Positions 11,209 through 13,502 of a stretch of DNA of 34,021 nt are shown here, in pieces; position 1 is the first letter of the stretch, and every line of letters begins with the position of its first letter. A model generated the notes under the pieces. That model saw only the letters and a list, made by a program, of their open reading frames with translations. It was not told where the DNA came from and did not search any database. The stretch comes from Holophagaceae bacterium (lineage in GTDB: Bacteria; Acidobacteriota; Holophagae; Holophagales; Holophagaceae): contig PLUC01000100.1 of assembly GCA_003165415.1 (NCBI GenBank), positions 1 to 34,021 of the forward strand. Reading direction: 5' to 3'. A program made the translations under genes and the position numbers.

Positions 11209-12330
11209 ATGATCGTGCGGGTCATTTTCATGTTGCTGGCCTGCCTGGTGATCGATCTTCTGTTGCGTCAGCATTTCCGACGCCTCCGGGACATGCGCGA
11301 ACGCCAGGATCTGGAGAAGCTCCAGGTCGCCCCGGTCCGGCTGGCCTTTTCCGACGATGCGCCGAGCCTCAGGCGGGTGGAGGTGGCCGGGCCCAAGGCG
11401 CGGATCCTTGCGGTGGATGACGAGAAGGTCGTCCTGGATTCCTACCGGCGCATCCTCGCGCCGGAAGGCTACAGCATCGACACGGTCGAGACCGGGCCGG
11501 AGGCCCTCAGCCTGCTGCGGCTGGATGCCTACGACTTCGTCATCACCGACCTCAAGATGCCCGACATGGACGGGGTGGAGGTGGTCAAGGCCGTCAAGGT
11601 CCTCCGGCCCGACGTGGACGTGGTGGTGATCACCGGCTACGGCACCATCGAGACCGCCGTGGAGACCATGGCGCGGGGCGCCTGCGAGTACCTGCGCAAG
11701 CCGTTCACCGCCGACGAGTTGGCAGGGCATGTGCAGAGGCTCCTGCTCCGGCGCCAGGCCAGGCTCCAGGCTGCCAAGGGGCACCGCGTCCGGGTCCTCC
11801 GGCCCAGCCAGGCGGGGGACGCCACCGCCCATGAAGACGCCGGCCAGGGCGGGGCCTTCCTCGCCAGCGGCCACACCTGGGTCTGGGTCGAGCCCGGCGG
11901 CCAGGTGCGGGTGGGCATCGACCACTGCTCCAGCCAGGCCATGGGCCCCATCGGCGAAGTGGTCCTGCCCGCCCCGGGGCTGGAAGTGCGGCGGGGCGAT
12001 CCCCTGTTCTCCTTCAGGCGCGGCGCCGAGCAACTGAGCTTCCCGGCCCCGGTGAGCGGCCGGGTGCAGGATCTCAACGGCAGCCTCGGGGCCGATCCCG
12101 CCCGGGTTTCCCGCAGCCCCTACCGGGACGGCTGGATCTGTCGGCTGGATCCCAGCGACCTGGCCGGAGAGCTGGGCCATCTGAGGATCGGCGGGCCGGC
12201 GCTGGCGTGGCTGGGCCAGGAGGCCGGCCGGCTCCAGGCCGCGTGGTCGGCCCGGCCCGATTCCGCCGAACCATTGTCCTGGGCAGCCCTGGCTCAGGAA
12301 CTCTTCGCCGGGGAGACCACCCGGGTCTGA
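11209..12330 (+). CDS. Membrane-anchored response regulator fused to a GcvH-like domain
   Basis: 373 residues from ATG 11209 (TGAGG six bases upstream). A single hydrophobic helix (VIFMLLACLVIDLLL, about 5-19) with a basic flank anchors it. A receiver domain follows (about 65-180) with acidic pair D70/D71, phosphoacceptor D114 (ITDLKMPDMDG), T142 and K164 (YLRKPF), all canonical. From about 220 the protein matches the glycine-cleavage H-protein fold: GHTWVWVEPGGQVRVGID, PGLEVRRGDPLFSFRRG, FPAPVSGRVQDLNGSLG and YRDGWICRL. The position of the lipoyl-lysine loop reads SFRRGAEQLSF, so the lysine is gone. No output DNA-binding domain is present. It is thus a signalling protein using a lipoyl-type fold as output, and the partner is unknown. 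It is convergent with the MreB homologue. Confidence 0.88.
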   Translation: MIVRVIFMLLACLVIDLLLRQHFRRLRDMRERQDLEKLQVAPVRLAFSDDAPSLRRVEVAGPKARILAVDDEKVVLDSYRRILAPEGYSIDTVETGPEALSLLRLDAYDFVITDLKMPDMDGVEVVKAVKVLRPDVDVVVITGYGTIETAVETMARGACEYLRKPFTADELAGHVQRLLLRRQARLQAAKGHRVRVLRPSQAGDATAHEDAGQGGAFLASGHTWVWVEPGGQVRVGIDHCSSQAMGPIGEVVLPAPGLEVRRGDPLFSFRRGAEQLSFPAPVSGRVQDLNGSLGADPARVSRSPYRDGWICRLDPSDLAGELGHLRIGGPALAWLGQEAGRLQAAWSARPDSAEPLSWAALAQELFAGETTRV

Positions 12331-12345
12331 ACCCGCGCCAATTGC

Positions 12346-12452
12346 TAAGCCGTTGTCTAGAATTAACCTGAACAGGCCGTTTCGGCCCCGGCATAAAGGG
12401 CCGTAGCAAAATAACCTGAAATGCACAGGTTATTTCGCAACGGCCCCTAATC
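12346..12452 (+). repeat. 107-bp palindromic repeat, long type, copy A
   Basis: One of three copies (12346, 20216, 33156). It runs from TAAGCCGTTGTCTAGAA to CGCAACGGCCCCTAATC. It folds as two hairpins: GGCCG-TTT-CGGCC in the first half, and a long one in the second half with outer stem GGGCCGT/ACGGCCC, an A.A mismatch, then a 10-bp inner stem AAATAACCTG/CAGGTTATTT around AAATGCA. The ends carry a short inverted repeat (GCCGTTG/CAACGGC) next to TAA on both sides, a possible 3-bp target duplication. It lies between convergent genes and covers the stop codon of the MreB gene. It may double as a transcription barrier. Confidence 0.9.
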
Positions 12453-13502
12453 CATGACCTGGATCCGTCTCAGGAAGGGGATGTCCTCAAGCAGCATGGC
12501 GGTGCCACGCACCACCGCGGTCTCGGGGTTTTCCGCCCGGTAGCATGGGAGGTGGGTCTCCTTGCTGAGGCGGATGTCCAGTCCCTGGATCTTGGAGCCG
12601 CCGCCGGTGAGGCAGATGCCCCGGTCGATGAGATCGGCGGCAAGCTGGGGGGGAGTCTCCTGGAGGGCCTTTCGAACCAGCTCGACGATGGCGTTGACGG
12701 GCTCAGCCATGGCCTCACGGATTTCCCCGTCGTTGAGGGTGAGGGTCTTGGGCAGCCCTTCGAACTGGTCCCGGCCGGAAATGGTCATGGTCCGGACCTT
12801 GTCGGAAGGGTACGCGGAGCCCAGCCCCCATTTCACCTCTTCCGCGGCCACTTCGGAAATGAGCACATTGTACTTTTCACGAATGTAGTTGAGGATCGCT
12901 TCGTCCATCTCGTCACCGGCAATGGTGATGGAATCGGCGAAAACTTTGCCATTGAATGAAATGACCGCCACATCGGTGGTGCCTCCGCCCACATCGACGA
13001 TCATGCAGCCACGTTTCTCGTTGGTGGCAAGACCCGCGCCCATGGCGGCCACCATGGTCTGGTCCACCAGGAAGACTTCCCCTGCCTTGGCGTCGTAGCA
13101 GACCTGCTTCATGGCTCGCCTGGCCACCTGGTGGGCTCGGGGGGGGACGCTCACCACGATCCGGGTCCGGGCGAAACTCCGTTTGGGCCTTGCCCTCTTG
13201 ATGAAGGCGGCCAGCATCTTCTCGGCGGCGTCCACTTCATAGATCATCCCGTCCTTCATGGGGCGAATGGTCTGGACCCCCTGGGGGGTTCGCCCCATGA
13301 GCTGCTTGGCCTCATCACCCACGGCTTCGACCTCATGGGTCCTCGTGTTGAGGGCAACTATTGATGGTTCATAGATCACAATGCGCCCGGCTTGCCGGGT
13401 GTGGACCAGGACTGAAGCGGTGCCCAAATCGATCGCCAGGTCGGAATTGGAAAGGTTGGACCAGAAGCTTCTTGTTAACAGGTTTGTCAACGATTTCTCC
13501 AA
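12447..13502 (-). CDS. mreB: MreB-family actin-like rod-shape protein, stand-alone
   Basis: 351 residues with all actin-fold ATP motifs: phosphate-1 DLAIDLGTASVLVH (21-34), connect/phosphate-2 IVDVGGGTTDVAVIS, and adenosine motif ICLTGGGSKIQGLD. MreB-typical MKDGMIYEVDAAEKML and VVRGTAMLLEDIPFLRR are present. It polymerises on ATP at the inner membrane and organises the elongasome. The normal mreC-mreD-mrdA neighbours are missing, so this may be a second copy. The start is TTG (13502) with no good ribosome site; the N-terminal 20 residues (MEKSLTNLLTRSFWSNLSNS) are longer than usual and could form the membrane-binding helix. The stop codon TAG lies inside the 107-bp repeat. Confidence 0.92.
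   Translation of the reverse strand: MEKSLTNLLTRSFWSNLSNSDLAIDLGTASVLVHTRQAGRIVIYEPSIVALNTRTHEVEAVGDEAKQLMGRTPQGVQTIRPMKDGMIYEVDAAEKMLAAFIKRARPKRSFARTRIVVSVPPRAHQVARRAMKQVCYDAKAGEVFLVDQTMVAAMGAGLATNEKRGCMIVDVGGGTTDVAVISFNGKVFADSITIAGDEMDEAILNYIREKYNVLISEVAAEEVKWGLGSAYPSDKVRTMTISGRDQFEGLPKTLTLNDGEIREAMAEPVNAIVELVRKALQETPPQLAADLIDRGICLTGGGSKIQGLDIRLSKETHLPCYRAENPETAVVRGTAMLLEDIPFLRRIQVMD

Follow-up and report, generated by a model that had tools for sequence, protein, structure and literature searches.

The gene at positions 11209 to 12330 (+ strand) of the window, the whole 34,021-nucleotide stretch of DNA that was analysed, encodes a membrane-anchored receiver joined to an H-protein (GcvH) fold without the lipoyl lysine, and this architecture, hereafter REC-GcvH, defines a family whose members carry eight different phylum labels and are generally encoded beside a heme-motif sensor kinase, a 4Fe-4S protein and an NrfD protein. 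The window copy itself is, judging from its sequence, a diverged and operon-less duplicate, not a typical family member. The original prediction had recognised the unusual domain combination; what the family context adds is that it points to a heme-motif kinase and to an electron-transfer module of the Hmc/Hyb type as the putative setting in which such proteins act. We found no description of the REC-GcvH architecture in the open-access literature, and it may be described elsewhere.

The open reading frame, supported by Pfam and by the family alignment, is uninterrupted over 373 residues, with an ATG start and the sequence AGG about six bases upstream. Its N-terminal membrane helix (residues 2-20; 11212..11268) is a hydrophobic segment that is conserved among those long-form relatives covering the region, and residues 2-40 form a helix in the AlphaFold2 model of the window protein, which agrees with the membrane tether originally proposed. 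By the positive-inside rule this would be a single anchor, with the domains that follow it lying in the cytoplasm. The receiver (residues 66-175; 11404..11733) matches Response_reg at E 6e-27, above the gathering cut-off in Pfam, and had rightly been called complete: D70/D71, the phospho-acceptor D114 (11548-11550), T142 and K164 are all present, and are invariant in 50 aligned rows. Pfam, Foldseek and hhalign together place the H-protein-like domain at residues 215-320 (11851..12168), the Pfam match to GCV_H itself covering residues 221-319 (E 3e-15, again above the gathering cut-off). It is followed by a C-terminal helix (residues 329-347; 12193..12249), seen in both model and alignment, which is a family-specific extension with the consensus IGxPxxxWYxxEI. 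No DNA-binding domain is recognisable in the family protein with Pfam and NCBIfam profiles.

That the output domain is an H-protein fold was also claimed at the outset, and the structural evidence is in accord. An AlphaFold2 model built from an input alignment of 50 related sequences has a mean pLDDT of 79.6, and about 81-94 over the H-like domain; its best Foldseek match is the solved H-protein 1onl (E 2.2e-11, TM(target) 0.88, rmsd 2.0 A), while the pTM of 0.46 means that the placement of the receiver relative to the H-like domain is not fixed by the model. Profile-profile comparison of the H-like domain with canonical GcvH by hhalign gives a probability of 99.4, and across the phyla the domain has acquired no insertions. 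The hairpin on which H-protein bears its lipoyl lysine corresponds to residues 268-278 (12010..12042), where the window protein reads SFRRGAEQLSF as first noted, and the lysine itself aligns to A273 (12025-12027), including when the reference is the same genome's own GcvH, which has the context ESVK. Family members share with GcvH (PF01597, TIGR00527) both fold and clear sequence homology, but differ in having no lipoyl lysine, in being fused behind a membrane-anchored receiver and in the additional C-terminal helix; the window protein scores 47.8 bits against the NCBIfam GcvH equivalog, far under its cut-off of 115.85. Recruitment of GcvH relatives into a redox pathway has a parallel in LbpA, the lipoate-binding proteins of sHdr sulfur oxidation, in which the lysine is kept in all 95 aligned members and the protein is a carrier (PMC6067878), whereas the REC-GcvH family has no conserved lipoyl lysine and is a signalling fusion.

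The absence of the lysine is a family property. Across 50 aligned relatives, column 273 holds A, T, S, D, N, L, E or G, and none of the residues counted there is a lysine; a conserved lysine-less family had been named beforehand as the outcome that would support a new signalling domain, and this is what the alignment contains. One might still suppose that lipoylation does occur, at some lysine or different residue close to the hairpin, given that residue 270, three positions before the lipoyl column, is K or R in most rows and that the adjacent column 272 is lysine in five of the 50. Neither feature is family-wide, however: some rows have T, I, N, Q or E instead of K270, nothing is left of the E-S-x-K context, and arginines stand around residue 270 in the window copy. 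On the column counts over these 50 rows, lipoylation at a shifted lysine is rejected, and we regard lipoylation of the domain in any form as extremely improbable. Elsewhere in the window's genome, on C183, a protein that matches GCV_H weakly is biotinyl-carrier-like, is encoded next to a carboxylase subunit and is no relative, and a free-standing, lysine-less GcvH-like protein (LVAVNMTT) occurs in Cloacimonadota in tandem with a canonical gcvH (L125:1085-1474, on the same contig as L130).

Relatives were found by a scan of genome contigs followed by extraction of open reading frames. Long-form relatives are labelled Acidobacteriota, Eiseniibacteriota, Pseudomonadota, Ignavibacteriota, Bacteroidota, Gemmatimonadota, Cloacimonadota and Spirochaetota, and since many of them are metagenome bins, single labels among these eight phyla may be wrong. 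Conservation on this scale excludes a chance origin of the architecture. The family gene is common in Holophagaceae (61/77 genomes) and sparse elsewhere; it occurs in 24 of 247 Acidobacteriota genomes, mostly Holophagaceae, and, within a single betaproteobacterial order, in 1 of 200 genomes, namely the genome on which the search was centred. The operon is also carried by cultured Geothrix isolates, which thus provide a defined test set.

The original prediction had further proposed a search for REC-GcvH fusions and their genomic neighbours, and it is this search that yields a conserved operon. The recurrent partners are a 4Fe-4S protein, an NrfD protein and a HAMP-HisKA-HATPase kinase, all three present in 49 of the 64 family loci fetched, and almost all of the remaining loci are truncated where the contig or the locus stops. 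A small multiheme cytochrome is also present in the group comprising Betaproteobacteria and Ignavibacteria. Gene order differs between clades, being Fe-S, NrfD, kinase, REC-GcvH in Holophagaceae and REC-GcvH, cytochrome, Fe-S, NrfD, kinase in Betaproteobacteria, with the kinase first in Gemmatimonadota, in Cloacimonadota and on contig C267 of the window's genome. That the set is kept together despite these clade-specific orders argues for a functional association and not merely an inherited neighbourhood.

By NCBIfam the Fe-S partner is nearest to HmcB/HybA and the NrfD partner to HmcC/HybB, both under the equivalog cut-offs. A twin-arginine signal is present on the Fe-S protein of the cytochrome-bearing group, and none is recognisable in Holophagaceae, Eiseniibacteriota, Gemmatimonadota or Cloacimonadota, which leaves the side of the membrane on which the protein lies unsure in these four lineages, although the C-terminal anchor and the positive charges that follow it point to a probable periplasmic position in both groups. 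The Fe-S genes of L010, L045, L051, L053 and L089 are HmcB-like, tail-anchored and without a recognisable Tat signal, and no exported partner for them was recognised among the annotated neighbours. Precedents come from the available part of an account of Fe-S/NrfD pairs, where tail-anchored pairs are known, one set of them without signal peptides, and where the Desulfovibrio Hmc operon includes rrf1/rrf2, regulators of hmc expression; REC-GcvH is not mentioned in that part (PMC10924467). The likeness to Desulfovibrio Hmc and to HybA/HybB lies in a tail-anchored HmcB/HmcC-like Fe-S protein with NrfD and in signalling genes within the same cluster. The family differs in that its regulator is a REC-GcvH with a heme-motif kinase, that its cytochrome, where present, is small and multiheme, and that its neighbours score below the Hmc equivalog cut-offs.

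The kinase adjoins REC-GcvH in most family loci, and there is none beside the window copy. Its sensor region sits between two membrane helices, is predicted to adopt a WalK-like Cache fold, and carries a CxxCH and a CX4CH motif that are invariant in 47 sequences, from which attachment of heme to the sensor may be inferred. The combination of CxxCH with a Cache fold, fused to a signalling output, resembles the sCache_heme sensors (DUF3365/Tll0287), which are reported to bind NO (PMC12889525), but the second invariant motif, CX4CH, distinguishes the family kinase, and two kinases gave no match to the DUF3365 profile (Pfam, E 0.01). Many of the kinases, though not all, have a cysteine-rich, zinc-ribbon-like insertion in the ATPase region (e.g., L089:7008-8912).

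A shorter form of REC-GcvH helps to define which elements of the system are constant. At five loci (L049, L051, L053, L059 and L063) a second, shorter gene lies beside the long one, and in the Nitrospirota loci seen only the short form occurs, likewise without the lipoyl lysine. The kinase next to the Nitrospirota gene belongs to the same sensor family and has both heme motifs, and other genes of the operon encode a receiver joined to a NuoE/HoxE-like subunit, followed by NuoF and a molybdopterin subunit. Because the short form thus accompanies another enzyme, the constant pair is the heme-motif kinase and REC-GcvH, while the electron-transfer enzyme varies. The fusion partner at L141:7836-8765 (equivalent to L076:7963-8892) is a thioredoxin-type 2Fe-2S subunit, and downstream of it DRTGG/HATPase genes accompany those for NuoF and the molybdopterin subunit.

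Response regulators are mostly known to act on DNA, on second messengers or in chemotaxis. We propose, with a probability of roughly 0.45, that REC-GcvH is a two-component response regulator that uses a lysine-less H-protein fold as its output and acts as a phospho-switch for an electron-transfer module of the quinone/cytochrome type. The operon kinase would sense, in the periplasm, either redox state or a heme ligand (NO, for example) and phosphorylate D114 of REC-GcvH; this switch would move the H-like domain, through which phosphorylation would presumably drive output. On the cytoplasmic side of the membrane the H-like domain may then offer a docking surface for proteins, and once docked could tune the electron-transfer module post-translationally. 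Direct action on redox proteins is, with moderate confidence, the most economical reading, because there is no recognised DNA-binding or enzymatic output, because the protein is anchored in the membrane and because a REC-NuoE fusion exists. More specifically, the family might constitute a class of phospho-controlled accessory subunits, in which the lysine-less H-fold, controlled by a two-heme Cache kinase, binds to a quinone/cytochrome or NADH-linked module and itself gates the flow of electrons; this we consider rather doubtful. In many phyla a carrier fold that has lost its cofactor site is encoded next to an electron-transfer module, which points to two-component control of respiration, with the H-like domain as a hitherto unrecognised output domain.

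The closeness of the genes would be compatible with roles in transcription or in a phosphorelay as well. The receiver could be a phosphate sink or relay step, with phosphate passed to or drained from other regulators that control transcription of the electron-transfer genes, while the H-like domain merely positions or dimerises the protein. Nitrospirota operons do have a single-domain receiver beside the short REC-GcvH, as well as a 466-aa receiver-bearing ORF of NtrC length, and the rrf1/rrf2 genes of the Desulfovibrio Hmc operon (PMC10924467) show that expression regulators can lie in such a cluster. Against this, the Holophagaceae operon offers a kinase and REC-GcvH with no DNA-binding regulator among its annotated neighbours, and the insertion-free H-like domain is conserved beyond what a passive spacer would need; we judge a relay, and a merely positioning H-like domain with it, to be unlikely. 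Less probable again is that the domain acts as a decoy of true H-protein, binding lipoylation or glycine-cleavage enzymes and so linking respiration signals to lipoate or one-carbon metabolism, a suggestion that draws on the fold itself and on the tail-to-tail position of a lipoyl synthase gene and the family gene at 62 Holophagaceae loci (some genomes counted twice). Yet lipA lies on the opposite strand and was not found alongside in the window's genus, in Eiseniibacteriota, in Pseudomonadota or in other phyla, and a canonical GcvH match is absent in the family hosts G082 and G083, which as drafts count only weakly. The arrangement is limited to part of Holophagaceae (e.g., L010:6121-7293) and, being lineage-restricted and convergent, is taken as synteny and not as a functional link to lipoyl synthase.

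The phospho-switch reading concerns the family, and the window copy requires separate consideration. Its genome holds a second copy within a C267 operon of kinase, REC-GcvH, Fe-S and NrfD; the two are 61% identical and are sisters in the tree (support 98/83, to be read with caution over long branches). Contamination as the source of two copies is disfavoured, though not fully excluded in an assembly 7.4% contaminated, by their position as sisters inside the genus clade. The window copy has a branch length of 1.13 vs 0.32 for its sister, has changed 22 of 125 near-invariant positions vs 4 of 125, and departs from the family motif D-D-F-x-x-K (residues 238-243; 11920..11937), reading D-H-C-S-S-Q: D239 and K243 are each conserved in 49 of 50 rows and F240 in 48, and the window copy has D239H, F240C and K243Q. 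Fe-S, NrfD and kinase partners have no convincing tblastn match within the window, the best being E 0.005 over 107 aa. This pattern is consistent with a paralogue on which selection has been relaxed or altered.

For the window copy alone, decay without function is a real possibility, though short of probable: its branch is 3.5 times that of its sister, otherwise near-invariant residues are lost, operon partners were not found nearby, and a second copy is absent from five relatives of the genus. What speaks for retention is that the frame is intact over 373 codons and that every receiver catalytic residue is kept, the receiver being the best-kept domain (77% identity to the C267 copy vs 61% in the H-like domain). 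Were the protein active, the simplest source of phosphate would be the C267 operon kinase; either its partner may have changed or its function may be in the course of being lost. A DinB-family gene lies on one side of the window copy and a convergent MreB gene on the other, and no synteny with a family gene was found from the DinB or MreB positions within the genus. A locus shared with other Holophagaceae was likewise rejected, the L010 DinB being no close relative of the window DinB. The MreB gene (12447-13502) has a second copy at G000:C99 (88%), and two copies are also present in two sister genomes.
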